A stretch of DNA of 64,000 nt, from the NCBI GenBank assembly GCA_032622095.1, contig CP136067.1, forward strand, positions 49,577,899-49,641,898. Reading direction: 5' to 3'. The DNA is from Siphonodentalium dalli. Lineage: Eukaryota > Mollusca > Scaphopoda > Gadilida > Siphonodentaliidae. Of this stretch, positions 12,168 to 57,102 are shown one piece after another. Within the stretch, counting starts at the first letter, position 1. Each line of letters opens with the position of its first letter. The notes beneath the pieces were generated by a model that worked only from the letters and a program-made list of their open reading frames with translations, searched no databases and had not been told where the DNA came from. Position numbers and translations under genes: made by a program.

Positions 12168-12246
12168 ATGGAAAATTGGCCACAAACACATCTGATGAAT
12201 TAAAAAAGGTATGAGTGGCGGAACATATATGGGCATTTATAGATTA

Positions 12247-22941: not shown

Positions 22942-23269
22942 CTTTATTCATCAAACGAATTCCAGAAACAAGACAGTACATTTTGAAAGGGAAAGTATAA
23001 CAATAATGCAGGGTCTATGTCACTCTATTTTCGCAGAATTTTAAACAAATTCCCATTATTTAACTATACTTTCAAGTTCACTTCTTGGTACAGAGAAAAT
23101 TAATAATTCAAGTTTTTCTGTAATACTCTATCGGATATCTATGCATATTTATTTGTTCAAGCCAACATTTTTGAACTTTACTCTCGATTATTGTCAATCA
23201 GCAAGCCGGTCAAAATTTACTGCCAGCCGCAGACACGTCTTGGTTTTGGAATTCGTTTGATGAATAAAG
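22942..23269. mobile_element. MITE-like element, duplicate copy
   Basis: Counterpart of 11840-12167 with the same inverted ends. Confidence 0.6.
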
Positions 23270-23348
23270 ATGGAAAATTGGCCACAAACACATCTGATGA
23301 ATTAAAAAAGGTATGAGTGGCGGAACATATATGGGCATTTATAGATTA

Positions 23349-23760
23349 TTTTTTTTTTTTTAAATAATTTTTATTGAAAGAGTCAGATGATTTTACGTGC
23401 AAATTGAATGGTTGTACATGTTGGATACAACATAACTATAATATTCATCTGATACATACATTCAGGTATACACTCATTCACGCACTCACGCTTGCACTCT
23501 TACTTACATCAACCGGCATTCAGTGGCTCTAAACAGGCTATCGGGAAATCTTTGATATTGTAATTTAAATCATGATATACAACCGAGAATGATTTGAATT
23601 TTTTTATTTTTCATTTTTTGTTTCGGTTTAGCACGACACTCAACTGAAGGGTGACTATAATTACTATAATTGAAGAGAGTAAGAGGTAGAACGGAATCAT
23701 AATTATTAAAGGAAAAAGCGCGAGTCTGATGAGTATATATCAAGAAATGTATGCTTTTTA
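23349..23760 (-). mobile_element. Candidate poly(A)-tailed retroinsertion, duplicate
   Basis: Counterpart of 12247-12658 in the second 11.1-kb copy, with the same A run and upstream AATAAA. Confidence 0.45.
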
Positions 23761-25267: not shown

Positions 25268-25369
25268 GTCTACCGATACTGATGCACACAAATTGGCGGT
25301 AGCCACCGGCGGTAGCCACCGGCGGTAAGCCACCGAAAACGAGACACAGCATCTCTGATGCCACCTCTT

Positions 25370-38789: not shown

Positions 38790-39578
38790 TCAATTTGGAA
38801 ATCGTTTAGATAAAATTATGAATTTTTGGACCCTCATAAATAAATCTATTATCTCTTCCAATGATAGTTTGTGGCTTCCATGTAGCAAGGTTTTTACTCC
38901 TGGTCTTGTTATTAATCCCCCAAAACACCTATCTCTTTCAACCAAATATCTGCGACAATAAAAAAGAAAATGTTCTGATGTTTCTTTGGCACCACAAATA
39001 CACAACGGACTATCTCTCAGATGGTTGCTGAAAAGATCATAGTTTAAATTACTGCATTCCAGTCTTAATCGGCAATGGTATATTTGACTTGCTCTCGTAT
39101 ATGCATATTCCAAGTATCTAGGACGCTCTTTGAGGTCACTATTCAAAAATGTTTTGAAGTCTGAGAGTGTTTCACATTTCCTCACTTCTGGTTTTAACTC
39201 GTTCCAAAGATTGATTGTGTGTGGAAGAAATGATTTCTGATAAGTAACTGAGTTGCAGAAAGGTACTCTAAGATCATCTGATCTCGTGTCATATCCACTA
39301 GTACTCGATATTGTATTCGGAACAGCATTGTATAGATAAGGGGGAGTGAGTTTTTTCGTCATTTTAAAAAAGAGCATGAGTTTAGTCTTTACTCTCCGTT
39401 TTGATAATTTTTCCCACCCAACTTCTTGAAGAACTGTGCATTTATTACAACTTCTTGTTCCACCGGTTACTATTCTAGCGGCTTCGTACTGAATATCTTC
39501 TAGTGAATCGGCTTCTTCGCCTGTACAATTGTCCCATACCGAGGAAGCATATTCCAAGACGGGACGAATATAGGACAA
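38790..39578 (-). pseudogene. CR1/Jockey-like ORF2 C-terminal part (3' half of a split element)
   Basis: Minus strand: SYIRPVLEYASSVWDNCT, then the thumb and a C-terminal zinc knuckle (LCICGAKETSEHFLFYC), ending at 38790 with a 3' UTR to about 38690. It starts exactly where the minus-strand RT at 41804-42225 stops (LERIYLSYI), so the two are halves of one protein. The frame is open to the breakpoint. Residues before SYIRP in this ORF derive from the inserted plus-strand element. Confidence 0.9.
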
Positions 39579-41803
39579 TAGTGCCAATTCATAAAAAAGA
39601 AGACAGGAGTAAAATGTCTAACTATAGGCCTGTATCACTGCTCAGCTGTATATCAAAGGTGTTTGAGAAATGTATATATAAAAAAATTTGGGACTTTTTA
39701 ACACTTAATGGACTAGTATCAAATTTACAGTCAGGATTTGTCCGTGGTGATTCCACTGTCTTTCAACTCACCGATATCTACGATTACATTGCAGACTCAT
39801 TGGACCAAGGTAAAGAAATAAGATCTGTCTTCTGTGACGTTAGCAAAGCGTTTGATAAAGTATGGCACACAGGTTTATTGTACAAACTTGAACGTATTGG
39901 TATCACTGGTAAATTACTTCACTTGATCGAGAGTTATCTAAGTCAACGCCAACAACGAGTAATAATTGACAATGAAAACTCAGATTGGAAACCCGTACAA
40001 GCAGGTGTTCCCCAAGGATCTATACTTGGACCTTTACTATTTATAGTTTATATAAACGATATATCTGAAAATGTTACTTGTCACATCCGACTTTTTGCTG
40101 ACGATACATCCATGTTTCTTACTATAGAAGATCCAGACAGAGCAGCAGATATGATGAATATGGATATCGCGAGACTAGCTAATTGGGCACATCAGTGGCT
40201 TGTTACTTTTAATCCTCAAAAAACTGAATCTCTTCTCATCTCCAGAAAGCGAACACCCATAGCCCACCCACCACTTCAGATGTCCAATTCTATTATCACA
40301 GAAGTTAGCTCGCATAAACACTTAGGATTAACATTTGACAATCAAGCGAAATGGGGTGACCACATAGATGATATTACTGATAGAGCTTGGAAGAAAATTA
40401 ATATAATGCGAATGCATAGATTTTCGCTGAATAGAAAAACCCTTCAAAAAATATATTTCTCTTACATTCGTCCAATCATAGAATATGCTGCACCAGTATG
40501 GGACAATTGTACATGTGAATTGAGCACACGACTTGAAAAAATTCAATTTGAAGCAGCAAGGATCGTTTCAGGAGCCACGCGTAGCACTAACAATAGCGAC
40601 CTTCTATCTGAACTTGGGTGGGAAACATTAGCAGAAAGGAGAAAAAAATTTAAACTACATCAGTTTTATAAAATGTTTGTTAGATCATCACCATCCTATT
40701 TATACAACATGATCAACACCGATACCCCGGGTTCCCAGAGATATAATTTTAGGAGAAAAGACTTAAGACCTCCGCAAGCTGACAACTCGGCATATATGAA
40801 CACCTTCCTTCCATCTGCTACTCGCCTGTGGAATGTGTTAACACCCGAAACTAAAAGCGCAAAGTCTTTAGAGATATTCAAGTCACGACTAGATATAGAA
40901 AAACGGAGAAATTCATTGAAAGTCCAACATTTTGATTATTGTTTAAATCGCGAAACCCAAATATTCCATGCCCGTTTAAGACTCAAGTGTAGTAATCTAA
41001 ATCGTGACCTTCGTGAAAACCATTTACGCGATTGTGACAAATGTGTATGCGGGGATGTAGAAAGCGCTGAACACTTTCTATTATTCTGTCAAAGATATAC
41101 TCAACTCAGGTCTGACTCATTCTCAAATATTGACCCGACTTTCTTAACTACCAAGATCTTACTCAAAGGCATACCATTGCTATCATCTGAAATAAATAAT
41201 GAAATATTCCGAGCTACGCAATACTTCATTCAAAAAAGCGGACGTTTCAAACAATACACTAACAATTCAACGGCATAGCAACGATAACCCATGGAGTTTT
41301 CATATTTAGTTTTCATGTTTAGTTTCCATATTTAGTTTCCACATTTATTTTCAAAACAATTCATTTTCAAAATAATTCTTTCCACAAGTTAGTCTAAAAA
41401 TGTTCATAACAGTGGTACCGACTTTTCTTTCACATACAAGCTCTTTATTTCCATCGCTTCACCTATCTCTGTCTCGTATTCCTTGTGAATACACCCCTCT
41501 CATTATTATCCACATAAGCTTATTTATCATTTCAACACTTATTGTAAACTCGTCTGTACATCATAATATTAATATACCATCACTTCTTAAACCTATTGTT
41601 TCTCTAACTCGACCATTTGCCATTCGCTCGATCTTCCTTGATTTCTACAATTTTTCTACTTGTCTGAGGAGATAGCTCAACAAAAGCACATATCTGCTTG
41701 CTGCTAAATCCTCTTCCCCTTTTCTATTCTACTCATGTTTCCATCATCTAAATGTTGTTCATCATAAATGTAATATTGGGGCTAATAAATATTGTTTAAA
41801 TCA
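39579..41803 (+). mobile_element. 5'-truncated CR1/Jockey-like element, nested, 12-bp TSD
   Basis: It is bounded by direct repeats AATATAGGACAA at 39567-39578 and 41804-41815. Outside them the minus-strand element is continuous. The body is the RT part of ORF2 plus a 3' UTR of about 525 bp with AATAAA near its end (41786-41791). No EN or ORF1, so it is a standard 5'-truncated insertion. Its coding region is undamaged, implying recent arrival. Confidence 0.93.
39581..41278 (+). CDS. Reverse transcriptase domain of CR1/Jockey-like ORF2 (N-truncated)
   Basis: About 565 codons are open without a stop. Motifs in order: IVPIHKKED and NYRPVSLLS (fingers), FCDVSKAFDKVWH (motif A), AGVPQGSILGPLLF (motif B), RLFADDTSMF (motif C, catalytic Asp pair), HKHLGLTF and SYIRPIIEYAAPVWD (thumb), RLRLKCSNLN, and a C-terminal zinc knuckle (CVCGDVESAEHFLLFC). 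It would copy element RNA by target-primed reverse transcription. The first 26 codons of the longer open frame (39503-39580) are antisense to the host element and not part of this protein. Without EN and a promoter it cannot act autonomously. Confidence 0.92.
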   Translation: MPIHKKEDRSKMSNYRPVSLLSCISKVFEKCIYKKIWDFLTLNGLVSNLQSGFVRGDSTVFQLTDIYDYIADSLDQGKEIRSVFCDVSKAFDKVWHTGLLYKLERIGITGKLLHLIESYLSQRQQRVIIDNENSDWKPVQAGVPQGSILGPLLFIVYINDISENVTCHIRLFADDTSMFLTIEDPDRAADMMNMDIARLANWAHQWLVTFNPQKTESLLISRKRTPIAHPPLQMSNSIITEVSSHKHLGLTFDNQAKWGDHIDDITDRAWKKINIMRMHRFSLNRKTLQKIYFSYIRPIIEYAAPVWDNCTCELSTRLEKIQFEAARIVSGATRSTNNSDLLSELGWETLAERRKKFKLHQFYKMFVRSSPSYLYNMINTDTPGSQRYNFRRKDLRPPQADNSAYMNTFLPSATRLWNVLTPETKSAKSLEIFKSRLDIEKRRNSLKVQHFDYCLNRETQIFHARLRLKCSNLNRDLRENHLRDCDKCVCGDVESAEHFLLFCQRYTQLRSDSFSNIDPTFLTTKILLKGIPLLSSEINNEIFRATQYFIQKSGRFKQYTNNSTA

Positions 41804-43905
41804 ATATAGGACAAGTAAATTCTTTCTAGAGTTCTTCTATCAAGGATAAATTTATACTTCCTCAGTATGTACAATCTTTTGGACGCTCGGTTTTCAATAT
41901 CTTCTATATGGTCTTTCCATTTACCCTGTCGGTTGAATGTCAGACCCAAATGTTTATGTGTGTCTACCTCATTTATTCTCTCGTTTGACATGTTTAGTAC
42001 TGGTTGGTCAATAGGTATTTGTTTCCACGAAACAAGCACGGATTCTGTTTTCAATGGGTTGAATTTAACTGCCCAGGTCTTTGACCAGTTGAATATTTTG
42101 TGTAGGTCTGAATTGATCAAATCTGCAGCAATTGTGGGATCTTCTATAGCAATATAAAGTGATGTATCATCCGCAAATAATCTTATATTACATGTAATTC
42201 CCTCGACTATGTCGTTTATATACACGAGAAATAGGAGAGGGCCGATTATTTATCCTTGAGGCACTCCTGTTGTAACGTCTTTCCATGGCGAATTAAAGTT
42301 AGAAATTGTTACTCTTTGTTGTCTACAATCAAGATAGTTTTCAAGTAGTTTTAAAAGCTTCCCAGTTATCCCCGTTCTTTTAAGTTTAAAGAGGAGACCC
42401 CTGTGCCAAACCTTATCGAACGCCTTGCTTATATCGCAGAATACACCCCTTATTTCCCTCCCATCGTCAAGGGCTGAGATAATATAATGGTAAATATCGA
42501 TCAATTGGAATACTGTGCTATCGTTCGGTGTAAATCCCGACTGTAGGTCGGTTAAAAGCTTATTCTTCGTAGGTATTTTGATATATGATAGAATAGACAT
42601 TTCTCGAAGACCTTAGACAGACAACTGAGTAAGGATACTGGTCGATAATTGGATGGATCGCTGGGATCTCCATTTTTGAAAATTGGGCATACGTTTGCCT
42701 TTTTCCATTCTGAAGGAAAATACGACCGTTCAATGAAAACCCTGAAAGAGAATGCTAGTGGTTTAGCTAGTGATATCGAACAATTTTTTAATACTTTGGA
42801 ACTAATACCATCGTATCCGGCCGCTTTCGATGTCTTGATTGAGTTTAAACTTTCGAGTACACGTTCATCAGATATTTCAATGTCGCTCAGGCGCTTAACC
42901 GTTAACCAATCAAAGATGGGTAACTCTAACTTATCTTCATCAGGTAAGGAGGAGATTTTACAAAAATAGTTATTTAATAAGTCTGCCTTTTCTTCATTTT
43001 CGGTTATTATAATCTGGTCAGTTTTTAGGGCTGGTATTGGTTTAGGTTCTGGTTTCATGAGGTGGTTTAATGTTTTCCACCAGAGTGAGGAATCAGTGAA
43101 ACAACTACCCAGTATTGACTGTGTTTTCTCCAGAGACTTTTGCTTGGAACGTCTTATTTTTGCTATAACTTCATTTCTTTTCTTTTTATAATTCGTCCAC
43201 GCTTCAATTGTTTCTCTTTGTTTTGCCAATTTGTAGTAACGTCTCCTTTGTCTCATAAGTTTTCGAATTTCACATGTTAACCATTCAGGTTCATTGTGTC
43301 GAACTATTACGAGTTTATTTGGTATATATAGATTCGCGGTGTCAATTATTTTTTTCGTTAGAGCTTCTGCTATTTCATCAGATCGAATTGCTGAGAGATC
43401 TCTCTTAAAGTCCCACGCGTTGAAGGCATTATTCATTGCGGAGTAATCGGCTCGATTATAATCCCATATCCTTCTTTTCATGATTTCACTCGGCTTCTTA
43501 AATTTCAAATTCAAACGTAGCAAGATTGGACAATGAAACCGAGTTAAATCCGAAAAGAATGGATCTAAGATTTCATTCGGTTCAACAACCTCAGGGGTAT
43601 TTGTAAAATATAAGTCTATGAGAGAAGAAGAACTTTCTGTGAAATATGTAGCTTGTTTAATTATTTGCTTTAGGCCAAAGCGCTGATAAATATATTTAAT
43701 TGGTTTTGTTTCTAATGGTATTTGGTTTGAATTAAAATCTCCAGTTATTATAACATGTGGGATATTAGTACGATCGCCCAACGCCAAGTCAATATTTGTA
43801 TATATATTTTCCCATATACTGATGGGTGTATTTGGTGGTCTATAAAACGTACCAAGCAAAAATCTCATTGTGGATGTTTCAATCTCTAGCCATACGCTCT
43901 CTCTT
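41804..43905 (-). pseudogene. CR1/Jockey-like ORF2, EN C-terminal part and RT N-terminal half
   Basis: It begins inside the EN domain (ESVWLEIET, then LLGTFYRPPN, VIITGDFNS). Linker and RT follow: SIKTSKAAGYDGISSKVL, NYRPVSLLSCLSKVFEKC, motif A (FCDISKAFDKVWH), motif B (TGVPQG followed by a TAA where family members have Ser), motif C (RLFADDTSLY) and thumb up to LERIYLSYI. Damage: one frameshift around 42560-42600, the nonsense codon near 42250, and loss of about 80-100 EN N-terminal residues at the ORF1 junction. The 3' half continues at 38790-39578. Confidence 0.92.
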
Positions 43906-44604
43906 GCTTTAGTTGGGCTTTAAGATTGTCTATGCCCATGCATTTGGCACTTTGAATCCTTTCGTAGGCTAGATCCAAGGACGAGTGCTTGGACACTAAG
44001 CCATCGATTGCGGATGAATTTGATGAAGACATCTTCGATAGGGCGTCGACTGTTTTTGTCAGAGTGCAAACAGTCTCCGACATTTCCAGTTGCGTGCTTT
44101 TGATGGTCGTGAGTCCTGTATCTATTCCAGATACCTTCTCTTGGTGAGACCGAGTGTTCGCTTTCATCAATGTGAGCTCAGTCAATGCGGAAGCAAGTTT
44201 CTCCTGAATACAAACAGCATTACACGGGCAGGTTGACGCAGGCGACTGGGCACTTTCAGGTGGTGCTGAATCATTGGGCTGAGTCGTCCTCGAAATGCAC
44301 TCGCGGATTTCATCAAATGGTCCTCCGTGTATGAACTGGGTAAGGCTATAAATATCCTTAGCTAGTTTTGTCTCCAGTGGAACTCACCCGCGTTTGGCTG
44401 GGAGGCGTGGTTTCGGTTTATATGTCCAAAGGTCAGCGTAAGTGTCCCGTGCCTCCGCGAAGACTTGCTGTCGGGCAGATTCCAGATTAACTGGGCCCGG
44501 GATCTTCAGAATAGGATTGCTGATCAATGATTCCTTTGGGAGGTGGATATTTCCTTCTATGTCACATTCCACGTATGGGTCCTGTGGTGGTTGCTTTGAA
44601 TTCA
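43886..44604 (-). pseudogene. ORF1-like coiled-coil protein upstream of the split element
   Basis: A single frame runs from 44604 to 43886, broken only by TGA at 44384-44386. It reads DPYVECDIEGNIHLPKESL, TYADLWTYKPKPRLP, a Cys pair region (STCPCNAVC), then a helical, heptad-like segment (about 43890-44180) suggesting a coiled coil. It lies just 5' of, and in the same direction as, the EN-RT frame, where ORF1 is expected. Its 5' part is cut off by L1-like sequence at 44605. A GTGAGT after the TGA could be read as a splice donor, but the same frame stays open beyond it, so a nonsense mutation is simpler. A host-derived exon cannot be excluded. Confidence 0.55.
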
Positions 44605-46850
44605 GATCTGGTAATGCTATGAATAGGTGGGTAAGTTTAGGTAGTATACGAGATATGTTCCAACTTAAATGTTGGCTTTGCAAATAAACAATCAATCAAG
44701 ATTTGATCACTGTTATTCTTCCGATTGGTATTAATAGTCTATGTTTCCATGTTTCGATCATACGGTTTATGTCTACTAATGTTTTATCATAGTTGTGACT
44801 CAGCTTGCCTGGTCTGTATTGAACTGTATACCCAATAAATCGAAGGTATGAGAAAAGTTTAGATTTAGATCGGGATAAATACAATCCTTCCGACATGCGT
44901 ATGATCCTATCCACGACGCCTGACATTTGCTAGGGTAGATTCGCAAGCCAGATATGTTTGCAAAGTAGTCTAAGATGAGTGTCGTGTCGTCTGCGTACTG
45001 TGTTATTTTGTACTAATGATTGCCGAGGGTTATTCCTGCCATATTTCCATTTTGCTTCACCAAGAGAGATAAAATTTCTGCGCATATCAAACAAATATAC
45101 GGTGAGACAGGGTCACCTTGTCGACAGCCTCGGGAAAGACTGAAACTCCTTGAGATGTGGCCATTTATCAGAATTGATGAATTAATATTGTTGCAAAAAA
45201 TTGTAATCCATCTCTTTAATGATTCACCAAAATTGAACATATCTAAACAGTTCATAATGAATTTCCATGATACGGAATCAAATGCTTTTTCAAAATTTTG
45301 AGAAGGTGTGGGCCTTGTTTTTGTGTCATAGAAAGCTCACCATCAACGAGGGATTCATTTAGCGATTCACACAGCAGTTGACCGAGGTCAGTCCAGAACA
45401 ATTTCCAGAACTCATAAGGATAGCCATCTAAGCCGGAAGATTTTTCCGTTTTTCGATTTTTTTAGTGCCATCGTTAGTTCACCTAGAGTTATCGGGCCTT
45501 CTATACTTTGGGATGCCTCGGGCGATAGTCTTGAATATTCACCTTGATCCAATATTGATTTGTAATCAAAGTCTATTGTTTTTTTTGACGAGTACAAGGT
45601 TTGGTAGAAATTTCGTGTTTCATTTAAAATTTCATTTTGTTTTGTTAACTTTTTTCCGTTTGAATCCTCCAAGAATGCCAGGGTTTTTTATATATATAGT
45701 TTCGTTTTCTAAATTCAGAAAGTATTTCGTTGGTTTTTCTCCCTGCTCAATCCACTTTGTTTACGATCTCATCATTGCTCCTTGGGTAGCTTCTATTCTC
45801 ATTTCATGGAGTTCAGGGTTAATGTTTTGAATTTGTTCCATTATACTGGCCTTCTTATTTAAATCAACTGAACATTTATCAATGGAAATTTCTAGTTCAT
45901 TTTTTATTTTTATTTTTTCGCTCACGCTTGCGTTTAGCCGAATACGCCACTGTTTGACCGCTGATATCGAGGAGAATTGCGTCAAGAAATAGTTGTTTGC
46001 CAATTTCGCATCTATTTGAGGTGGAATCCGCTTCACCGCGTCTGATATATTTGTATCTACATTTGTTTGATTCTATGATAGATTTAACCAATTCTATATA
46101 TTTTTCTTCGCGTAAGAGAGAAGTATTGAATTTCCAAAAACCCTGGCCTCTCTTGATATTATTCAGCGCTAAAGATAGAGTAATAATAGAGTGATCTGAT
46201 CTATATCCTGGTAATATATCTGGGCCCGCTCCTGTGATACTAATTAGGTCATTTGATATCAGGAAATAATCAAGTCTTGCCATTTTAATTGGAGATCTTC
46301 TCCTCCAGGTGTATCGCTTCTCATTTTCATTATTAAGGCTCCATACATCTACAAGTTCGAGTCTAGTCTGTCGACAAGTGGTTCCACTGCTTTTAATGCT
46401 TTTGGGTTATTTATATGTTTATAATTATAAGTATCCATGTTTTGGTCGCGAGCTAAATTCCAGTCCCCACAAATGATAACTTGTGTGTTGCCAATATCAA
46501 GAATTTTATTTTTGAGTTGAAGATAGAAATCTGGATTATCTTCGTTTGGTCTGTAGATATTTGCAAGAGTTACTCTCATTTTTTCAAAAGTCATGTCTAG
46601 TATAATAAAGTTTCCGTTGTCATCCTTTAATATGTATATGATAGTCAAAGTTATTGTTGAAAAGAATTGCTACTCCGCGTGATTGGGATTTGTAAGAAGC
46701 TGCTTCAATTTTGAAGCCCCATTCGGTAGATTTCGGTATCGATATCTCGACATCGCTGCGTTCAATTTCGCCGAGTTATATGTCAAATGAAAGGGAATTT
46801 TATTGCCAATAAGACACATCTGAGGATATTTTTGCCTGCAATTATCGATT
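44605..46850 (-). pseudogene. L1-like retrotransposon, copy 2 (3'-truncated)
   Basis: Minus-strand order: EN N-terminal part (YKSQSRGVAILFNNNF, about 46640-46700), LANIYRPN and VIICGDWN (46349-46648), ARLDYFLIS and GYRSDHSIITL (46283-45897), linker, then RT (SINGHISRSFSLSRGCRQGDP with SPYICLICAEILS, 45255-45013; a short word is read before SINGH), and IETWKHRLLIPIGRITVIKS (44926-44696). It ends abruptly at 44605 just after the THLFIALPD block, so the zinc-knuckle region is gone. Frameshifts are frequent. Relative to copy 1 it keeps the RT core but lacks about 39 bp near 44972, and has a 44-bp insertion at 44655-44698. Confidence 0.88.
44655..44698 (+). mobile_element. 44-bp retroelement tail inserted in L1-like copy 2, AGAT TSD
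   Basis: Copy 1 of the L1-like element is uninterrupted at the matching point (GAGATTTGATCACTG). In copy 2, 44 bp ending in CAAATAAACAATCAATCA lie between AGAT (44651-44654) and AGAT (44699-44702). A short AATAAA-bearing tail flanked by a small duplication suggests an extremely 5'-truncated retrotransposition. Confidence 0.6.
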
Positions 46851-46915
46851 TCTAGAACTTATTAGGGCTTTGACAGTTTGTGTGGTTTTAAACCAAAATC
46901 AATACTTTCAACCTT

Positions 46916-47238
46916 GTCACTAGTATAGTCGATATTGGTATTTTAGTCATTTTCCCCAGGGGCCTGTAGTACTGATCATATTATTATGCTACTTTGATAT
47001 ATCCTCGGGCTAATAGGTTCACATTGGACCTGAATACTGACATTGGTTCATATTGGACTTACTTGGTTCTGATATAGCCCATAATGGACGTATACCCGTC
47101 GTTATAACCTACGACAGGGTACCCTGAGTCACCACACCAAATTTGTTTGAAATCGGACCAGTAGTCTGGGAGATAAATCCGGACAGACAGACGGACAGAC
47201 AGATCCTACTCTTGTGTGTGTATATATATATATATATT
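46916..47238. repeat. Left ~320-bp direct repeat flanking the PLE pair
   Basis: From GTCACTAGTATAGTCGATAT to the (TA)n run this is identical, as far as read, to 55568-55890. It contains CAAATTTGTTTGAAATCGGA and GACAGACAGACGGACAGACA. Diverged relatives lie at 56195-56290 and, inverted, at 63285-63440, so the sequence is also a dispersed repeat. Here it most likely marks the target duplicated on PLE insertion. Confidence 0.9.
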
Positions 47239-47557
47239 TTGAAAGTGTGGAGAGCGCGGGCACAGGTCGGAATCCGATTTCTTATGTAATTATTTCTATG
47301 GAACTAGCTAAATTTTTTTAGGTTGTGTCGGAAATTGACATAAATTTTGTTAGGTTGTGTCAGAAATTGACATAAATTTTGTTAGGTTGTGTCGGAAATT
47401 GACATTGAATAATTTGTTGAGCATTGTTGTCATTCAAAGATGGAACTAGCTAAATTTGTTTGGGTTGTGTCGGAAATTGACATAAAATATTGTGTTGAGC
47501 ACAAACTAAGGATAATGGTGTTGACATAAGCTAAAAGCTAATTGAACTGCGTGTTAA

Positions 47558-49936
47558 TCAAGGTCTGAGTCTAGATCGAACGAGCATATCTCTCAAACTG
47601 GGATTTTTCTTGTAGGCAATAATAACCCGTTTGTCGAGAGGCTCGGTCAATTTAGTGTTTAATAATGCAAAGTTTTTTCTGAAAATGTTTGCGATTTCAA
47701 CATTTCTACGATTGTAGATCAGAGGAAAGCACAAGAAATTTCGAGAAACACCTTTGTAGTCAATGTTAAGTCCGAACGGAAGATATGTTTTAAGTACGCC
47801 CATCCAATGATTTTCGCGTTCTAGGCGTATTGAATCGGTTTGGTCTTCGTCGGCTAGAATTGGTGTCTGTTCTATTGGCTGAAAGCTGAAATGGGATTTA
47901 ATGTCATGATTAGATGAGTTGAAATGATCGGAAATTTGCATGTCGAGTTTTTTGCGAACACTGGAAAGATGATTAGACATTCTAACTTTGAGAGAGGTTT
48001 TTGTTTGTCCAACATATTGTATACGGCATCTTTTGCATGTGATTAAGTAAATTACATTTTTAGAATCACAATTAAGTTCGCTATGCATTTGATACGATAT
48101 GCGTGTTTGTTCGCTGGTGAAAGTGTTACTAGTATTGATATATCCTATTGTATTGATGTAACATCGTTTTTTGTGACAAAATGAGGCTGAACCATTACCC
48201 AACACCGGCCGGTTGTGCCGTATCCTTGTTGGTTCAGTCGATGTTGGGTCATGGCGTGACGAGTTCAATTCTCTGAGAGTTTCGGACTTTACTTGGCGCA
48301 GTAATCTACTAGAGTAGCCGCGCGGTCGTAAAGCCTGGAAAAGCACTGAACAAGCTTGATTTAGGTCGCTTCTGTTCGTGCAGTTCCGGTGATATCGAAT
48401 GATTTGAGATTTAATCAATCCATTGAAAAGTTTTGGCGGATGGAAAGATTTACGATGAAGTAGCTGGTGAGAATCCGTTGGTTTCGTAAAAAGTTTTGTA
48501 TCTAAAATGTTGCATGATGTAAATTGTGGGCCCTTAAATATTGTTAAATCAAGGAAATCAATGCTGGTTTGCGATATTGATTCTTTGAGTTTGATTGATT
48601 CGTCATGACTGTTCAAGATGTCCAAGAACACCCTAAACTCATCCAGACCATGAGTCCAAATGATAAATATGTCGTCCAAGAATCTATAATAGGCTAATGG
48701 TTGTTTATCAGATTTGGCCAGGGCGCCTTTCTCCCACTCTGCAACAAAAATTGAGGCAAAATTAGGACTAAACTTCTTGCCCATACTGCAGCCGGAGACC
48801 TGTAAATAATATCGTCCATTAAATTCAAAGTCATTCCCTTTAAGAGAAAGTTCTAATAATTGAAGTAGTTCATCTCCAGGTCTATGAGGATCATGGTGGA
48901 AATCAAATGCATTCTTAATTGACTTTAATCCGGCATCGATTCCAATATTTGTATACATAGATTCCACGTCGAGACTAATTAGGTAAGCAGAAGGTGGAAC
49001 TTCAATTTTCGACAATTTAATGAGGAAGTCCTCCGTGTCTTTTAGATAGCTCGGATGGCGGGTAGCAATTGGTTTCAAATAGAAATCAATAAACTCCGAA
49101 ATGTGGTACGACTCCGAAGCCACGTCGCTGATGATGGGGCGACCGGGTGGTGTGTATGGATTAGTCCAACAGCTCAAAGGTTTGTGTATTTTAGGTAGCA
49201 AATAAAATGTCCTATTATTGGATTCAGGTTTTGCAATTAGATACTGAACATGTTTTTTCTTTAAAACGTCCTGGTCCAGCAAGCTTTTGAGAATGAGATT
49301 GAATTTTAAAACATTGGATTTCCAAATTGGCTCATCCAATGGTTTGTAATATTTAGTGTTGCTTAATTGGCGCGTCGCTTCTAGAATGTAATTTTCTTTA
49401 GACATGATGACGAGCGAGCTGCCTTTGTCACAAGGTTTGATTACAATGTTTTTATTGCTGCGAAGAGTTTTTAGTGCAGTTCTTTCAACTTTAGTGAGGT
49501 TATCCTCGTTGTGAAATTTTGGTAAATTTGTGATGTCGGTTTTGACTAAGCCAGCGACCTCGGGAATGGAGTGGTCAATCTGGCGATCAGAGGGGGTCCA
49601 TATCGAAGGTTCTTTAAATTGATCTTTTAAACCTGTCGAATTGCGAAAGAAATCAGCCATAGCTGTTACTTCCCTAAATTGCATGCTTGCTGGACCGCCG
49701 TTCATTTCCATGGCATACATAGAGTCTGGTAAAACCAATGTTCCATCCTCCGTCTCAACAACATGTGGTGTTTCTTTGAGATCGGGTGGGGTAGGAACAA
49801 AGGTTAGACCATACCTAAGTATTGATTTCTCACCAGCGCTCAGGGAAAGATCGGGTACAAGATTGACTATCTCGGTGCCGAGACCGACTCTTTCCGCATG
49901 GCTGATGCGCTTCTGAGGAATTAGTTTAAATGACCT
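47558..49936 (-). CDS. PLE ORF2: reverse transcriptase plus GIY-YIG endonuclease
   Basis: 792 codons open from the end of ORF1. The first 66 codons have no Met but carry the PLE-typical block SLSAGEKSILRYGLTFVPTP. Counting from codon 67: KPCDKGSSLVIM (101-112), LLPKIHKP (180-187), PPGRPIISD (197-205), motif A LDVESMYTNIG (256-266), motif B SGCSMGKKFSPNFASIF (315-331), motif C YRFLDDIFIIW (351-361, Asp pair 355-356), a Cys pair CHKKRC (521-526), and GIY-YIG: NVIYLITCKRCRIQYVGQT (561-579), Arg in SLKVRMSNH, and a downstream Glu (about 641). The endonuclease nicks target DNA and the RT copies PLE RNA. The C-terminal EN marks a canonical EN-plus PLE. All catalytic residues appear intact. Confidence 0.95.
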   Translation of the reverse strand, partial: RSFKLIPQKRISHAERVGLGTEIVNLVPDLSLSAGEKSILRYGLTFVPTPPDLKETPHVVETEDGTLVLPDSMYAMEMNGGPASMQFREVTAMADFFRNSTGLKDQFKEPSIWTPSDRQIDHSIPEVAGLVKTDITNLPKFHNEDNLTKVERTALKTLRSNKNIVIKPCDKGSSLVIMSKENYILEATRQLSNTKYYKPLDEPIWKSNVLKFNLILKSLLDQDVLKKKHVQYLIAKPESNNRTFYLLPKIHKPLSCWTNPYTPPGRPIISDVASESYHISEFIDFYLKPIATRHPSYLKDTEDFLIKLSKIEVPPSAYLISLDVESMYTNIGIDAGLKSIKNAFDFHHDPHRPGDELLQLLELSLKGNDFEFNGRYYLQVSGCSMGKKFSPNFASIFVAEWEKGALAKSDKQPLAYYRFLDDIFIIWTHGLDEFRVFLDILNSHDESIKLKESISQTSIDFLDLTIFKGPQFTSCNILDTKLFTKPTDSHQLLHRKSFHPPKLFNGLIKSQIIRYHRNCTNRSDLNQACSVLFQALRPRGYSSRLLRQVKSETLRELNSSRHDPTSTEPTRIRHNRPVLGNGSASFCHKKRCYINTIGYINTSNTFTSEQTRISYQMHSELNCDSKNVIYLITCKRCRIQYVGQTKTSLKVRMSNHLSSVRKKLDMQISDHFNSSNHDIKSHFSFQPIEQTPILADEDQTDSIRLERENHWMGVLKTYLPFGLNIDYKGVSRNFLCFPLIYNRRNVEIANIFRKNFALLNTKLTEPLDKRVIIAYKKNPSLRDMLVRSRLRP
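49895..49936 (-). promoter_or_regulatory. Candidate programmed -1 frameshift site (T TTA AAC)
   Basis: The heptamer TTTAAAC occupies 49930-49924 with ORF1 codons CAT TTA AAC TAA. Slipping back one base gives TTT AAA CTA ATT, exactly the ORF2 frame. TTTAAAC is among the most efficient known -1 slippery sequences. Fourteen bases downstream lies a small stem (CGCAT-CAGCC-ATGCG, 49909-49895), and a second hairpin (TCTCGGCACCGAGA) lies at 49883-49870. The first spacer is longer than the usual 5-9 nt, so the true stimulator may be a larger fold. Confidence 0.75.
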
Positions 49937-51363
49937 TTAAAGATGTTGGTCCAGCCTTGGTAGATTTTCGCCGCCGTCTGTGATGTCCAGTGGATGTTGT
50001 CATTCTCCACGTGAAAGTCGCGGGGGGGTATTGCCTGTATGACCTTGAGGTTCTGTGTCTGACGAGCTTGGCTGTTAATGGCACGCAGAACATCCTGGTC
50101 CCTAGAATCTAAACTGAATGAGATATTTATTTCCTGAAAATGAAGTGTCGCATTAGGAAAAACTTTTCGGAAATTACTAACCATGTTAGTTACCCTGCTT
50201 TTAGCTGTGGTGCCTGCTGTTTTGCCTTTGTCGTTGTCTATCTTCCAGTCCTCTCGGTTGTTGATGCCAATGTTGATGATGACGTGTCGAGGTGTCTTTT
50301 CTGGCTTCGATTTCAGTTTGTGGGCCATGTTGCAGAAATGACCTAAATTGCCACCTGGGTAAGAAGCAATACAAACATTTTTGGGAGGATCGACATCGAT
50401 CCGGGACACATTAGAAGAGCCTAAAATAACAACAGGGTTTTTTATCTGTTTAGGGAAGGACCAATCCTTCTTAGGGCCAGGTTGACGAAATTTATAAAAT
50501 TTGGATACCTTAGGTGATGTTGATAATACCTCGGCATACGATGGTGATGATGTTGAAATCGCTGGCGATGTCATCGAAGCAATGGAACCAACAGGCGAAG
50601 GAGGGCTGGAAGAGATGTGCTTTGGTGGTGTTGTTTTCTTGGCTGGTGAATTTTGAAGTGATGTATTTGGTGGAGTGGATATGCGTGACGTCCGTGGTTT
50701 TGGTGCAGGTCTCTGTGGCTGTGGTGTGGCTTTGACGCGTTTTGGTGTGGATCTCACAGACGACGACGTTGTCGGATCCCTGGCTGGACTATCCTGAAAT
50801 TGAAGCTGGCGAGCGATTAGTGGGGGAGGGGAGGGTGACCGACCACGTTTGTTTGTATGAGTTTGGACGCCAACTCGTGTACCTATCGAGGACTGAAGAT
50901 TACCACAGATGCTCAAGAACTTTGATTTTGTCTCATTAGTTAATTTGGTGCCAAAATTCTTCAGTCCCCATTTTAATGCCGTGTCACGTGCTCGGTCGAA
51001 GTCAAGGGTTTTAGAAGAAAGAGCCGAAAGAACCTTGACTTCAATTTCTGATTCCGTTTTCCGATAATAATTTACCAAAGTTTTCATGGAGTTTAAACCC
51101 CACTGAAAAGCGTCCGCTTTAAGCGAATTGAAGACATCGTCACAGGGGAGCACTGGTCGGAATGTCTTCTTTCGCCCTGACTCAACGATGGCCGAAAAGC
51201 CTTTCGGAAGGACCTTCTTCTCCAAACGGTCCTGTAAAAAATTAATATGGTGCCAAAGTTGTAGAATTTTGTATAGCAACTTTACTAGATTTGAATGGTC
51301 TAAATAAGCCTGGTCTTTTTGCCGCTCTGGGCGGTTAGTTTTTCCACGTTTAGGTTGAGTCAT
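49921..51363 (-). CDS. PLE ORF1 with C-terminal SGNH/GDSL-hydrolase-like domain
   Basis: 480 codons, starting at an ATG. Residues 1-155 are charged and mainly helical (LVKLLYKILQLWHHINFLQD; FDRARDTALKWGLKNFG). Residues 160-310 are Pro/Ser/Thr-rich and basic, a likely disordered RNA-binding linker. Residues 309-480 fit an SGNH hydrolase: VVILGSSNVSRID (315-318 in place of GDS), NIGINN (GxN, 366-369), and DNIHWT (455-458, the D-x-x-H block). The nucleophile Ser, the Asn and the His are present; the usual Asp before Ser is Ser. Related esterase domains are known in ORF1 of CR1-type LINEs and in giant Athena PLEs. It ends with the slippery codons TTA AAC before TAA, so a fraction of ribosomes is predicted to continue into ORF2. 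Confidence 0.85.
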   Translation of the reverse strand: MTQPKRGKTNRPERQKDQAYLDHSNLVKLLYKILQLWHHINFLQDRLEKKVLPKGFSAIVESGRKKTFRPVLPCDDVFNSLKADAFQWGLNSMKTLVNYYRKTESEIEVKVLSALSSKTLDFDRARDTALKWGLKNFGTKLTNETKSKFLSICGNLQSSIGTRVGVQTHTNKRGRSPSPPPLIARQLQFQDSPARDPTTSSSVRSTPKRVKATPQPQRPAPKPRTSRISTPPNTSLQNSPAKKTTPPKHISSSPPSPVGSIASMTSPAISTSSPSYAEVLSTSPKVSKFYKFRQPGPKKDWSFPKQIKNPVVILGSSNVSRIDVDPPKNVCIASYPGGNLGHFCNMAHKLKSKPEKTPRHVIINIGINNREDWKIDNDKGKTAGTTAKSRVTNMVSNFRKVFPNATLHFQEINISFSLDSRDQDVLRAINSQARQTQNLKVIQAIPPRDFHVENDNIHWTSQTAAKIYQGWTNIFKGHLN

Positions 51364-51490
51364 TTTGATCCAGGACTTGAATTTTGGCTGTGAATAAAGG
51401 TAATGATTAGTAACATATAATACACAAAGAACGGAACGCGAAGATATACAATAAAAAAGTACTTAGGAGCGCACTGTCAAGTTGCCTCAA

Positions 51491-51516
51491 CGTTTCGGTA
51501 GAATTACCTTCTTCAG
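51491..51516 (-). ncRNA. Hammerhead-ribozyme-like core in the PLE 5' UTR
   Basis: The minus strand reads CTGAAGA, then A, stem GGTA-ATTC-TACC, then GAAACG, followed by GTTG-AGG-CAAC, a possible stem III. The order CUGANGA / stem II / GAAA / stem III matches the hammerhead layout, and PLEs are known to carry minimal hammerheads in their pseudo-LTRs. Weak points are an extra A before stem II and no convincing stem I. It could be a degenerate or structurally variant ribozyme. Confidence 0.35.
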
Positions 51517-52161
51517 GAAGCAAGCTAGGTTCGAATGTTGAGGTTTTTCCATGGATCTTATATACCCGTGTGAGATAAGCTCCCATTGTGCTCCAGGGTT
51601 TCGAGAGACGTGTCAACAGCTATGTTCCTGTTTAAAACAAACAGTGAAACAATGCATACAAAATGTTTGGCGCCGTCACGACGCCCGTGTTTATTTAAGA
51701 TCGCGCGTTCTTAATGGGTTGTGTAATGGCTTCCGGAAGCCCCTAATCCAAATCCTAGTGACAGTACGCAATTAGACAGTAATACATATGTGTTAAGTAA
51801 ATAGAAATAAAAGATATCCCTGGCACAGGCGATATATATATTTTGAAAGTGTGGAGAGCGCGGGCACAGGTCGGAATCCGATTTCTTATGTAATTATTTC
51901 TATGGAACTAGCTAAATTTTTTTAGGTTGTGTCGGAAATTGACATAAATTTTGTTAGGTTGTGTCAGAAATTGACATAAATTTTGTTAGGTTGTGTCGGA
52001 AATTGACATTGAATAATTTGTTGAGCATTGTTGTCATTCAAAGATGGAACTAGCTAAATTTGTTTGGGTTGTGTCGGAAATTGACATAAAATATTGTGTT
52101 GAGCACAAACTAAGGATAATGGTGTTGACATAAGCTAAAAGCTAATTGAACTGCGTGTTAA

Positions 52162-54540
52162 TCAAGGTCTGAGTCTAGATCGAACGAGCATATCTCTCAA
52201 ACTGGGATTTTTCTTGTAGGCAATAATAACCCGTTTGTCGAGAGGCTCGGTCAATTTAGTGTTTAATAATGCAAAGTTTTTTCTGAAAATGTTTGCGATT
52301 TCAACATTTCTACGATTGTAGATCAGAGGAAAGCACAAGAAATTTCGAGAAACACCTTTGTAGTCAATGTTAAGTCCGAACGGAAGATATGTTTTAAGTA
52401 CGCCCATCCAATGATTTTCGCGTTCTAGGCGTATTGAATCGGTTTGGTCTTCGTCGGCTAGAATTGGTGTCTGTTCTATTGGCTGAAAGCTGAAATGGGA
52501 TTTAATGTCATGATTAGATGAGTTGAAATGATCGGAAATTTGCATGTCGAGTTTTTTGCGAACACTGGAAAGATGATTAGACATTCTAACTTTGAGAGAG
52601 GTTTTTGTTTGTCCAACATATTGTATACGGCATCTTTTGCATGTGATTAAGTAAATTACATTTTTAGAATCACAATTAAGTTCGCTATGCATTTGATACG
52701 ATATGCGTGTTTGTTCGCTGGTGAAAGTGTTACTAGTATTGATATATCCTATTGTATTGATGTAACATCGTTTTTTGTGACAAAATGAGGCTGAACCATT
52801 ACCCAACACCGGCCGGTTGTGCCGTATCCTTGTTGGTTCAGTCGATGTTGGGTCATGGCGTGACGAGTTCAATTCTCTGAGAGTTTCGGACTTTACTTGG
52901 CGCAGTAATCTACTAGAGTAGCCGCGCGGTCGTAAAGCCTGGAAAAGCACTGAACAAGCTTGATTTAGGTCGCTTCTGTTCGTGCAGTTCCGGTGATATC
53001 GAATGATTTGAGATTTAATCAATCCATTGAAAAGTTTTGGCGGATGGAAAGATTTACGATGAAGTAGCTGGTGAGAATCCGTTGGTTTCGTAAAAAGTTT
53101 TGTATCTAAAATGTTGCATGATGTAAATTGTGGGCCCTTAAATATTGTTAAATCAAGGAAATCAATGCTGGTTTGCGATATTGATTCTTTGAGTTTGATT
53201 GATTCGTCATGACTGTTCAAGATGTCCAAGAACACCCTAAACTCATCCAGACCATGAGTCCAAATGATAAATATGTCGTCCAAGAATCTATAATAGGCTA
53301 ATGGTTGTTTATCAGATTTGGCCAGGGCGCCTTTCTCCCACTCTGCAACAAAAATTGAGGCAAAATTAGGACTAAACTTCTTGCCCATACTGCAGCCGGA
53401 GACCTGTAAATAATATCGTCCATTAAATTCAAAGTCATTCCCTTTAAGAGAAAGTTCTAATAATTGAAGTAGTTCATCTCCAGGTCTATGAGGATCATGG
53501 TGGAAATCAAATGCATTCTTAATTGACTTTAATCCGGCATCGATTCCAATATTTGTATACATAGATTCCACGTCGAGACTAATTAGGTAAGCAGAAGGTG
53601 GAACTTCAATTTTCGACAATTTAATGAGGAAGTCCTCCGTGTCTTTTAGATAGCTCGGATGGCGGGTAGCAATTGGTTTCAAATAGAAATCAATAAACTC
53701 CGAAATGTGGTACGACTCCGAAGCCACGTCGCTGATGATGGGGCGACCGGGTGGTGTGTATGGATTAGTCCAACAGCTCAAAGGTTTGTGTATTTTAGGT
53801 AGCAAATAAAATGTCCTATTATTGGATTCAGGTTTTGCAATTAGATACTGAACATGTTTTTTCTTTAAAACGTCCTGGTCCAGCAAGCTTTTGAGAATGA
53901 GATTGAATTTTAAAACATTGGATTTCCAAATTGGCTCATCCAATGGTTTGTAATATTTAGTGTTGCTTAATTGGCGCGTCGCTTCTAGAATGTAATTTTC
54001 TTTAGACATGATGACGAGCGAGCTGCCTTTGTCACAAGGTTTGATTACAATGTTTTTATTGCTGCGAAGAGTTTTTAGTGCAGTTCTTTCAACTTTAGTG
54101 AGGTTATCCTCGTTGTGAAATTTTGGTAAATTTGTGATGTCGGTTTTGACTAAGCCAGCGACCTCGGGAATGGAGTGGTCAATCTGGCGATCAGAGGGGG
54201 TCCATATCGAAGGTTCTTTAAATTGATCTTTTAAACCTGTCGAATTGCGAAAGAAATCAGCCATAGCTGTTACTTCCCTAAATTGCATGCTTGCTGGACC
54301 GCCGTTCATTTCCATGGCATACATAGAGTCTGGTAAAACCAATGTTCCATCCTCCGTCTCAACAACATGTGGTGTTTCTTTGAGATCGGGTGGGGTAGGA
54401 ACAAAGGTTAGACCATACCTAAGTATTGATTTCTCACCAGCGCTCAGGGAAAGATCGGGTACAAGATTGACTATCTCGGTGCCGAGACCGACTCTTTCCG
54501 CATGGCTGATGCCCTTCTGAGGAATTAGTTTAAATGACCT
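52162..54540 (-). CDS. PLE ORF2 (RT plus GIY-YIG EN), copy B
   Basis: The 726 codons from the first in-track start onward are identical in sequence to copy A, including the Asp pair of motif C and the GIY-YIG residues. In the 66-codon upstream extension one base differs (plus-strand 54513 C, copy A 49909 G), changing QKR to QKG. The slippery heptamer at 54534-54528 is conserved. The element lacks a complete ORF1 and 5' UTR, so it could be expressed only from outside. Confidence 0.93.
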   Translation of the reverse strand, partial: RSFKLIPQKGISHAERVGLGTEIVNLVPDLSLSAGEKSILRYGLTFVPTPPDLKETPHVVETEDGTLVLPDSMYAMEMNGGPASMQFREVTAMADFFRNSTGLKDQFKEPSIWTPSDRQIDHSIPEVAGLVKTDITNLPKFHNEDNLTKVERTALKTLRSNKNIVIKPCDKGSSLVIMSKENYILEATRQLSNTKYYKPLDEPIWKSNVLKFNLILKSLLDQDVLKKKHVQYLIAKPESNNRTFYLLPKIHKPLSCWTNPYTPPGRPIISDVASESYHISEFIDFYLKPIATRHPSYLKDTEDFLIKLSKIEVPPSAYLISLDVESMYTNIGIDAGLKSIKNAFDFHHDPHRPGDELLQLLELSLKGNDFEFNGRYYLQVSGCSMGKKFSPNFASIFVAEWEKGALAKSDKQPLAYYRFLDDIFIIWTHGLDEFRVFLDILNSHDESIKLKESISQTSIDFLDLTIFKGPQFTSCNILDTKLFTKPTDSHQLLHRKSFHPPKLFNGLIKSQIIRYHRNCTNRSDLNQACSVLFQALRPRGYSSRLLRQVKSETLRELNSSRHDPTSTEPTRIRHNRPVLGNGSASFCHKKRCYINTIGYINTSNTFTSEQTRISYQMHSELNCDSKNVIYLITCKRCRIQYVGQTKTSLKVRMSNHLSSVRKKLDMQISDHFNSSNHDIKSHFSFQPIEQTPILADEDQTDSIRLERENHWMGVLKTYLPFGLNIDYKGVSRNFLCFPLIYNRRNVEIANIFRKNFALLNTKLTEPLDKRVIIAYKKNPSLRDMLVRSRLRP

Positions 54541-55567
54541 TTAAAGATGTTGGTCCAGCCTTGGTAGATTTTCGCCGCCGTCTGTGATGTCCAGTGGATG
54601 TTGTCATTCTCCACGTGAAAGTCGCGGGGGGGTATTGCCTGTATGACCTTGAGGTTCTGTGTCTGACGAGCTTGGCTGTTAATGGCACGCAGAACATCCT
54701 GGTCCCTAGAATCTAAACTGAATGAGATATTTATTTCCTGAAAATGAAGTGTCGCATTAGGAAAAACTTTTCGGAAATTACTAACCATGTTAGTTACCCT
54801 GCTTTTAGCTGTGGTGCCTGCTGTTTTGCCTTTGTCGTTGTCTATCTTCCAGTCCTCTCGGTTGTTGATGCCAATGTTGATGATGACGTGTCGAGGTGTC
54901 TTTTCTGGCTTCGATTTCAGTTTGTGGGCCATGTTGCAGAAATGACCTAAATTGCCACCTGGGTAAGAAGCAATACAAACATTTTTGGGAGGATCGACAT
55001 CGATCCGGGACACATTAGAAGAGCCTAAAATAACAACAGGGTTTTTTATCTGTTTAGGGAAGGACCAATCCTTCTTAGGGCCAGGTTGACGAAATTTATA
55101 AAATTTGGATACCTTAGGTGATGTTGATAATACCTCGGCATACGATGGTGATGATGTTGAAATCGCTGGCGATGTCATCGAAGCAATGGAACCAACAGGC
55201 GAAGGAGGGCTGGAAGAGATGTGCTTTGGTGGTGTTGTTTTCTTGGCTGGTGAATTTTGAAGTGATGTATTTGGTGGAGTGGATATGCGTGACGTCCGTG
55301 GTTTTGGTGCAGGTCTCTGTGGCTGTGGTGTGGCTTTGACGCGTTTTGGTGTGGATCTCACAGACGACGACGTTGTCGGATCCCTGGCTGGACTATCCTG
55401 AAATTGAAGCTGGCGAGCGATTAGTGGGGGAGGGGAGGGTGACCGACCACGTTTGTTTGTATGAGTTTGGACGCCAACTCGTGTACCTATCGAGGACTGA
55501 AGATTACCACAGATGCTCAAGAACTTTGATTTTGTCTCATTAGTTAATTTGGTGCCAAAATTCTTCA
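54525..55567 (-). pseudogene. PLE ORF1, copy B, N-terminally truncated
   Basis: It keeps the Pro/Ser-rich linker and the whole SGNH-like domain with GSSN, GINN and DNIHWT, but lacks about the first 133 residues. The upstream limit coincides with the start of the 320-bp direct repeat. The frame is open to that limit. Confidence 0.9.
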
Positions 55568-55864
55568 GTCACTAGTATAGTCGATATTGGTATTTTAGTC
55601 ATTTTCCCCAGGGGCCTGTAGTACTGATCATATTATTATGCTACTTTGATATATCCTCGGGCTAATAGGTTCACATTGGACCTGAATACTGACATTGGTT
55701 CATATTGGACTTACTTGGTTCTGATATAGCCCATAATGGACGTATACCCGTCGTTATAACCTACGACAGGGTACCCTGAGTCACCACACCAAATTTGTTT
55801 GAAATCGGACCAGTAGTCTGGGAGATAAATCCGGACAGACAGACGGACAGACAGATCCTACTCT

Positions 55865-55898
<34 letters not shown>

Positions 55899-55899
55899 G

Positions 55900-55961
<62 letters not shown>

Positions 55962-55985
55962 CTATATATATATATATATATATCG
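55568..55985. repeat. Right ~320-bp direct repeat and long (TA)n microsatellite
   Basis: Identical to 46916-47238 up to the microsatellite. Here the (TA)n tract is expanded to about 115 bp with two GC interruptions (55866-55985). The 109-codon minus-strand ORF covering it is repeat-derived. Confidence 0.93.
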
Positions 55986-56194
55986 TATAAAGTGTTGAGA
56001 ACTATATGCACAGATATATATATAGTAGAAATGAATAAACTTATACCCGTTATTCTGTTGGACGGCACGGGCCACAGTGAAACACATCTATAAAGACCTG
56101 AAATAGGCACATAGTGAGCGTATTTTATTTTATTTTTTGTGTGTATTTAATTATAATTTTTTTAATCAACAGTTTGAAAAACTAACCTCCGCCA

Positions 56195-56292
56195 GATTAT
56201 CCCGAGTCACCATACCAAATTTGGTTGAAATCTGACCAGCAGTCTGGGAGAAACACCCGGACAGACGGACAGACAGATCTTACTCTTTTATA
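56195..56292 (+). repeat. Diverged copy of the flanking repeat's 3' half
   Basis: GAGTCACCATACCAAATTTG, then GGTTGAAATCTGACCAG, CGGACAGACGGACAGACAGA and a (TA)-rich end parallel 47126-47235 with several changes. This shows the 320-bp sequence belongs to a dispersed family rather than to the PLE. Confidence 0.75.
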
Positions 56293-56836
56293 TATTTTGA
56301 TAGCTGATAATGCTGTTATCAAGAGAGAACTATCGCGACGCGAATGGAGTTATCTTTCTTATAATGCATTCCCGATCGAAGACAAATTAGCCACATTTTG
56401 ATCACAACTTGATGAAAGGTATTGGAAAAATGTCATATAATTGAAAACTATTCTTAAAATCATATTCAAACTGAAATATTTGAACGTTCTACACGATTAT
56501 CATTGTGTGTTGACAAATCACTGTAACAGTACTGTTTACATATTTGACAACTGGTTTCAAGTCTAGAAATTTCGTTATTCCAGAAAATTCAATAATTAAT
56601 ATAAGAACAAAGTTTATTGCGAGCAACTATTCTGGCATCGTGCCAAAACACACCCGCGTCCACCTGTGCTATCTGGAAGATACATTTATATGTAGTCTGG
56701 CTCATAACATATGGCGGAGGAAAATGCTAAACGTATGCTATGTTGTCAGCATACATAGTTTATTTGCGTTAACTGTGATATATATAGAAGATTATGTAAA
56801 TTTGTAATCGTAAAATTATAACATATTCTTTTTCAG
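56293..56836. other. Presumed intron, glutamate receptor gene
   Basis: Ends in a pyrimidine-rich stretch and AG (TTCTTTTTCAG, 56826-56836). The 87-codon ORF within has no motif. No other feature seen. Confidence 0.5.
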
Positions 56837-57102
56837 GAGTCAACGGATCCAGATTATAGTAAACTGTGGCGCGCGATGAGCGATGGGCCGCATCATCCGC
56901 ATGTGACTTCACGAGAAGATGGAGTAGACCATGTTTATTCTGGCAAATATGCGTATATAGGTCGGAGAATGGGTGCTGAAGTGATAGTATCAGATCCTAA
57001 ACATTGTGGTAATCTCGCTTTGGCAGACGAAACCTTTAACACCGCTGGTGAAGGATTCATTCTACCCGAAGGTGCGGCTTTCACGGAGCTATTTAATAAA
57101 AA
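56837..57102 (+). CDS. Ionotropic glutamate receptor, penultimate exon (ligand-binding lobe S2)
   Basis: An acceptor AG at 56835-56836 and a donor GTATGT at 57103 bound 266 bp. The reading starts in phase 0 (ESTDPDYSKLWRAM) and ends in phase 2. Landmarks of the iGluR S2 segment: SKLWRAM, SREDGVDHVYSGKYAYIG (the EGVxRVxxGKYAYI pattern), a Cys (DPKHCGNL), and AGEGFILPEGAAFTELFN (GxGFxxPKGSPxxxxFN). The product is a membrane cation channel subunit gated by an amino acid. The position after KYAYIG that usually bears an acidic ligand-contact residue is Arg here (KYAYIGRR), so ligand preference may differ. Exons for the N-terminal domain, S1 and M1-M3 were not found in this window and presumably lie upstream. 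Confidence 0.88.

Follow-up and report, generated by a model that had tools for sequence, protein, structure and literature searches.

The slip site U UUA AAC is used by coronaviruses, and retroviruses and animal LTR retrotransposons make Gag-Pol by -1 frameshifting. Of 51 animal retroelements covered by a survey of LTR elements, 28 have pol in the -1 frame, according to a paper that also lists U_UUA_AAC among the most shifty heptamers for mammalian ribosomes; the name Penelope was absent from the examined part of that paper (PMC5009743). Another means of reaching a downstream frame, overlapping stop-start coupling, has been observed for SART1, and reinitiation has been proposed for L1 (PMC5972666). 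Canonical Penelope-like elements are described as single-ORF elements (PMC11167929), and the parts of the literature examined do not state how the two-ORF forms make their enzyme. An esterase ORF1 in Penelope-like elements was noted previously from RepBase (PMC3905857), and GDSL ORFs were described in rotifer Athena elements (PMC5408684). The word frameshift was absent from the main text of the former paper and its sole use in the latter concerns LTR elements; in the text examined, neither mentions a frameshift between Penelope-like ORFs. No report of a frameshift in a Penelope-like element was present among the titles and abstract openings listed from the open-access literature. As far as these searches reach, the case described below would be without precedent as a programmed frameshift of the Penelope-like class.

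The window analyzed here, a stretch of DNA of 64,000 nucleotides, carries on its minus strand a Penelope-like retroelement with two ORFs, present as a tandem insertion (47228..55570) with a unit of 4,604 bp and a second unit that is 5' truncated. ORF1 of the complete copy, copy A, encodes 480 aa (49921..51363, minus strand, from an AUG at 51363 to a UAA at 49923-49921) and consists of a conserved N-terminal domain, a P/S-rich linker and a C-terminal SGNH-like domain. ORF2 is an open frame of 792 codons (47558..49936, minus strand) in which a reverse transcriptase domain was detected at 48605..49000 (minus strand; Pfam RVT_1, E 1.7e-6; 28.3 bits, just under the cut-off of 29.6) and a GIY-YIG endonuclease domain at 47795..48058 (minus strand; Pfam PF01541, E 1.9e-8, above the cut-off). 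The element thus exhibits both the reverse transcriptase with a C-terminal GIY-YIG endonuclease, the RVT_1 match being slightly below cut-off, and the tandem or partial tandem copies (pLTRs) by which Penelope-like elements are recognized. A hammerhead ribozyme in the pLTR is taken here to be a common rather than a defining trait of these elements. None was detected at E values up to 1 within positions 45000-57000 of the window, and hammerheads are carried by other Penelope-like elements (PMC11167929). In copy B, the 5'-truncated ORF1 occupies 54525..55568 and ORF2 occupies 52162..54540, both on the minus strand. The tandem insertion is flanked by a 322-bp direct repeat (46916-47237 and 55568-55889) that is 100% identical and resembles a very long target-site duplication.

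The SGNH/GDSL-like domain of ORF1 extends from VVILGSSN to DNIHW (49987..50433, minus strand; Pfam GDSL below cut-off, E 0.023), and single ORF1 proteins either fell under the Pfam GDSL cut-off or gave no match. A profile of six ORF1 proteins matched PDB 4c1b, the ORF1 esterase of LINE ZfL2-1, with an E value of 1e-7 over a region that takes in the S, G and N blocks but not the H block; all four signature residues of SGNH esterases (S, G, N and H) were invariant in the six aligned ORF1 sequences. Judged by these alignments, ORF1 is a LINE-like SGNH protein whose C terminus resembles the ORF1 esterase of CR1/L2 LINEs; unlike the window element, those LINEs carry a LINE reverse transcriptase and endonuclease. 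The element shares a Penelope-class reverse transcriptase and an SGNH/GDSL domain with the esterase-ORF1 Penelope-like elements described earlier (PMC3905857 and PMC5408684). As such ORF1s are already on record, the ORF1 protein is not new; what seems new is the route by which ORF2 is reached.

ORF1 of the window element ends GGT CAT TTA AAC TAA. The heptamer T TTA AAC (49924..49930, minus strand) is followed directly by the UAA stop (49921..49923, minus strand), and ORF2 is open in the exact -1 frame with an overlap of 16 nt. A canonical X XXY YYZ heptamer is therefore present in the 0 frame within the overlap with a -1 ORF, an arrangement read correctly in the original prediction, which had proposed -1 frameshifting at this site and had rated U UUA AAC as a strong slip site, in agreement with the paper cited above (PMC5009743). 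A change of frame after AAC would yield a protein of 480 + 788 = 1268 residues, as computed, close to the predicted 1,270. The heptamer was also claimed to be kept in both tandem copies, and it does occur at the same site in copy B (54528..54534, minus strand); however, copies A and B are 99.97% identical over 3739 nt and the shared heptamer is therefore no independent evidence. As in retroviral and LTR Gag-Pol and in coronaviruses, the first ORF carries an in-phase X XXY YYZ at its end, the enzyme ORF is in the -1 frame, and one mRNA is proposed to give two products. Unlike retroviral and LTR Gag-Pol, the window element is a non-LTR element whose reverse transcriptase is joined to a GIY-YIG domain, its ORF1 is SGNH-like rather than Gag, and any stimulator is putative.

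The weight of the case for frameshifting lies in the comparison with relatives and not in the single window sequence. The host genome (2.2 Gb, 9 contigs) was searched for related elements. For the window-family ORF2, 57 places were scored (of 3642 candidates), all with an intact 792-codon frame and 99-100% identity, and the 33-nt window-family junction was found at 222 genome places with three or fewer mismatches; among the matches listed (100 of 222), all were exact. A reverse transcriptase motif pattern designed to miss the window family and blind to the junction hit 142 places vs 54 for the reversed pattern, and 20 regions were then examined. A second reverse transcriptase motif pattern hit 15 places, most of which were window-family sequence save for one letter. 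Two further families with both ORFs were recovered: RSM, with 68% identity to the window family in ORF2 and 51% in ORF1, and KNM, with 49% in ORF2 and about 33% in ORF1. The intact copies of RSM (L044 and L045) and KNM (L039-L042) have ORF2 in the -1 frame and an ORF1 that terminates in T TTA AAC TAA, and the residues at the ORF1 C terminus vary before the heptamer (GHLN, QSLN and CPLN in the three host families). The heptamer letters were intact at 8/8 distinct window-family sites, 12/12 KNM sites and 6/8 RSM sites among the loci examined; seven KNM loci (L015, L017, L020, L022, L027, L028 and L036), together with a single RSM site (L010, also L046), could not be aligned across the junction and were left out of this tally. 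The heptamer site was lost in RSM copies L030 and L047, and two more RSM copies, L048 and L050, retain the letters out of phase with the open frame taken; these copies look decayed. Loci incomplete at the junction (L051, L052 and L055) or too decayed (L046, L056 and L058) were not counted, nor were the three readable copies of other host-genome clades (L053, L054 and L057), which have a single-ORF layout, are partly decayed, and carry an in-frame AUG upstream of a block, GLxF/YCPT, that resembles the ORF2 N-terminal block of the window element.

Conservation of the junction was compared with the silent-site background. The heptamer and UAA, both invariant among the representatives of the three host families, showed 0/10 changes in each of the three family pairs. 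The 60 nt upstream of the heptamer contained 25, 44 and 45 differences in an ungapped register, and 8, 23 and 21 of 48 sites differed at nt 7-55 downstream. The proportions of four-fold sites differing were 0.57 (window-RSM), 0.80 (window-KNM) and 0.69 (RSM-KNM) in ORF2 and 0.56, 0.67 and 0.68, respectively, in ORF1, and a single codon was kept at only 2/36 three-way conserved Leu residues in ORF2 and 3/11 in ORF1. From -60 to +150, heptamer plus UAA formed the longest three-way identical run (10 nt; the next was 5); this run ranked second longest among 2409 ORF2 columns, and in the ORF1 alignment the seven letters of the heptamer were the second longest run, behind one of 8. The residues FKL in ORF2 plus LN in ORF1 could jointly help to fix the letters of the heptamer.

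The chance expectation for the heptamer was also examined. TTTAAAC is common in the window, with 28 occurrences vs 21 +/- 5 expected and at least 28 in 11/100 shuffles, and ORF1 of the window element contains five further in-phase X XXY YYZ heptamers, one of which is TTTAAAC. Codon shuffling gave p values for an in-phase TTTAAAC within the overlap of about 0.0005 for the window element (16-nt overlap), 0.003 for RSM (79 nt), 0.0006 for KNM (22 nt) and 0.0016 for L059 (85 nt), the last being a relative from outside the host genome that is described below. The corresponding values for any canonical heptamer were 0.017, 0.12, 0.023 and 0.08. Taken singly, the p value of each family is suggestive.

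The point at which ORF2 translation begins was examined from the pattern of substitutions downstream of the heptamer. Between the window element and RSM, nt 9-60 from the start of the heptamer gave a dN of 0.054 and a dS of 1.50 in the ORF2 frame, vs dN values of 0.31 and 0.20 and dS values of 0 and 0.22 in the two other frames, and 7/8 changes at nt 7-55 fell at ORF2 third positions. This stretch precedes any in-frame AUG in both elements. Between these two families, the sequence immediately past the heptamer thus changes in the manner of ORF2 coding sequence. In the window family the ORF2 frame is interrupted by a stop 2 codons upstream of the heptamer, and in KNM by one 4 codons upstream, so that in both families the frame has to be entered at that point; RSM and L059 have it open upstream for 23 and 21 codons, respectively. 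The ORF2 N-terminal block SLSAGEKSILRYGLTFVPTP (49787..49846, minus strand), which includes SLSAGEKS, was aligned with four relatives. The absence of an AUG before this block, as originally noted, was confirmed, since the first in-frame AUG of the window ORF2 is at 49720 (codon 71), downstream of the block. The first in-frame AUG likewise follows the block in RSM (codon 51) and L059 (codon 371), whereas in KNM one lies before the block, 17 codons into the frame past the heptamer (codon 17).

Relatives outside the host genome were sought with a three-family profile scan of prokaryote assemblies, from which L059, L060 and L061 were obtained. These sequences come from assemblies filed as bacteria (Epulopiscium, Enterovibrio and Saccharibacteria); the contigs look eukaryotic and are probably contamination of bacterial assemblies. 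An initial scan, in which the window protein was the sole query against genome contigs, confirmed no relative, none was confirmed in viral contigs, and no match was obtained in plasmids with an L059 protein query or in phages with a KNM protein query. A family closer to L059 than the known ones was not seen in the host genome (59 places scored of 2877 candidates). L059 has an SGNH-like ORF1 and an ORF2 with 37-40% identity to those of the host families, in the -1 frame. Its ORF1 ends TAT TTA AAC TTC AAA GCC CCT TAA, with the heptamer in phase and separated from the stop by four sense codons. L060 has 35% identity in ORF2, which is again in the -1 frame, and its ORF1 ends GAT TTA TGT TAG, without the heptamer. 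At L060:1045-1096, the place of the heptamer in the others is taken by an ORF2 AUG that overlaps the ORF1 stop (AUGUUAG). The heptamer is missing from the distant L061 as well, in which an in-frame AUG follows the ORF1 stop at a distance of 53 nt; an in-phase CCCAAAC located 90 nt before that stop was not counted as a slip site.

The heptamer and a -1 ORF2 were thus found in 4/6 two-ORF families (window, RSM, KNM and L059), beyond the silent-site background in diverged relatives, which upheld the conservation that the original prediction had proposed to check in homologues. That prediction had also named relatives without the heptamer as evidence against it: such relatives do exist, namely L060 and L061, and in both of them an in-frame AUG precedes the conserved block. 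In a tree rooted at the midpoint, L059 and L060 (98/98) were sister to the three host families in a five-family clade (97/96), with L061 on a very long branch, a topology from which the heptamer is probably ancestral. The simplest history consistent with this tree, and a possible one, is an ancestral heptamer with a switch in L060 to stop-start coupling of the SART1 kind. More broadly, we consider it likely that this esterase-bearing Penelope-like clade, in different hosts, has kept a U UUA AAC frameshift since its common ancestor as a means of setting the ratio of ORF1 protein to reverse transcriptase-endonuclease, and that one lineage swapped in a stop-start AUG with the offset unchanged.

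These comparisons of sequence favor programmed -1 frameshifting at U UUA AAC far above any other reading of the junction, with a probability that we put at roughly 0.86. Ribosomes would read ORF1, an SGNH-domain protein that by analogy may be an RNP component, and most would stop at the UAA. A minority would slip back by one base at U UUA AAC, the P-site Leu and A-site Asn tRNAs re-pairing with UUU and AAA, and would continue into ORF2 to produce an ORF1-reverse transcriptase-endonuclease fusion of approximately 1268 residues. The frequency of slipping would set the ratio of abundant ORF1 protein to rare enzyme, as for Gag and Gag-Pol.

Splicing could reach ORF2 with no frameshift if an intron removed the end of ORF1 and joined an upstream exon to ORF2 near CTAATTCCTCAG. 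In rotifers, intron retention and a Penelope copy that carries a spliceosomal intron have been described (PMC3846280). In the window element and RSM, the site is followed by CAG and a short run of pyrimidines, and in KNM L039 by ATCAG. This acceptor is, however, not kept in place, being ATCAAG in KNM L041 and CAAAG without pyrimidines in L059, and neither a fixed -1 offset nor an invariant in-phase heptamer would be accounted for by splicing. We regard splicing as an unlikely route to ORF2.

Equally improbable is a separate initiation of ORF2 near the junction, whether by termination-reinitiation, at an internal start or at a non-AUG codon. The AUG of L060 that overlaps the ORF1 stop resembles the coupling known for SART1 (PMC5972666), and the AUGs of L061 and KNM (53 nt after the ORF1 stop and at codon 17, respectively) would also suit such a route. 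In the window family, unlike in SART1-type coupling, no AUG overlaps the ORF1 stop, all AUGs of the window element from that stop to 49720 are out of frame, and the conserved block would be missing from a protein begun at 49720. In L059, no in-frame AUG occurs before codon 371, and separate initiation leaves the heptamer unexplained. An origin of the offset by chance, through an indel in a dead copy, or through faulty assembly was considered because most retroelement copies decay and the site is gone from RSM copies L030 and L047, but is in our view refuted by the open 792-codon ORF2 at all 57 scored places (of 3642 candidates) and by the offset shared among four diverged families.

With programmed frameshifting as the favored reading, the sequence downstream of the heptamer was examined for a stimulatory structure. 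A candidate stem (49830..49916, minus strand) starts 7 nt after the heptamer in copy A, with an MFE of -31.3 and a z score of -2.3 (1/200 shuffles as good). The 100 nt that begin 5 nt past the heptamer ranked near the top in stability within each ORF2 (0 to 3 of 80 segments as stable), with z scores from -3.4 to -0.8; segments of 50 and 75 nt were less distinctive (0 to 9 of 80). Copy B, the common form of the window family, breaks one pair of the copy A stem and weakens it. The pseudoknot for which the original prediction had suggested looking was not borne out, no H-type pseudoknot being detected in the window element, RSM or KNM at the thresholds used. In L059, a hairpin and a pseudoknot candidate are located 6 nt past the heptamer (6/40 shuffles as good for the pseudoknot), and the plain fold gave a z score of -1.1 (31/200 shuffles as good), so that neither structure stands clearly above chance. 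A consensus stem with covariation was not detected, as 11 to 90 of 200 column shuffles were as good, depending on the rows and length used; the consensus folds were only weakly better than column shuffles, and conservation of the pairing across families was not detected. A stimulator thus remains a candidate feature of the mechanism.

If the ratio were fixed in a Gag-Pol-like manner, these elements would need much ORF1 protein per enzyme, as LTR elements do, and the enzyme would be delivered fused to ORF1 protein. L060 and the heptamer families form a natural pair for comparing two solutions at a single site.

Other repeated sequences were observed in the window. An 11.1-kb tandem duplication (3065-14171 and 14167-25273) is 99.98% identical, and a satellite-like array with a period of approximately 160 bp is present inside each of its units. 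Reverse transcriptase and endonuclease open frames at 39479-41278 (plus strand) and 42552-43919 (minus strand) probably belong to other retroelements.
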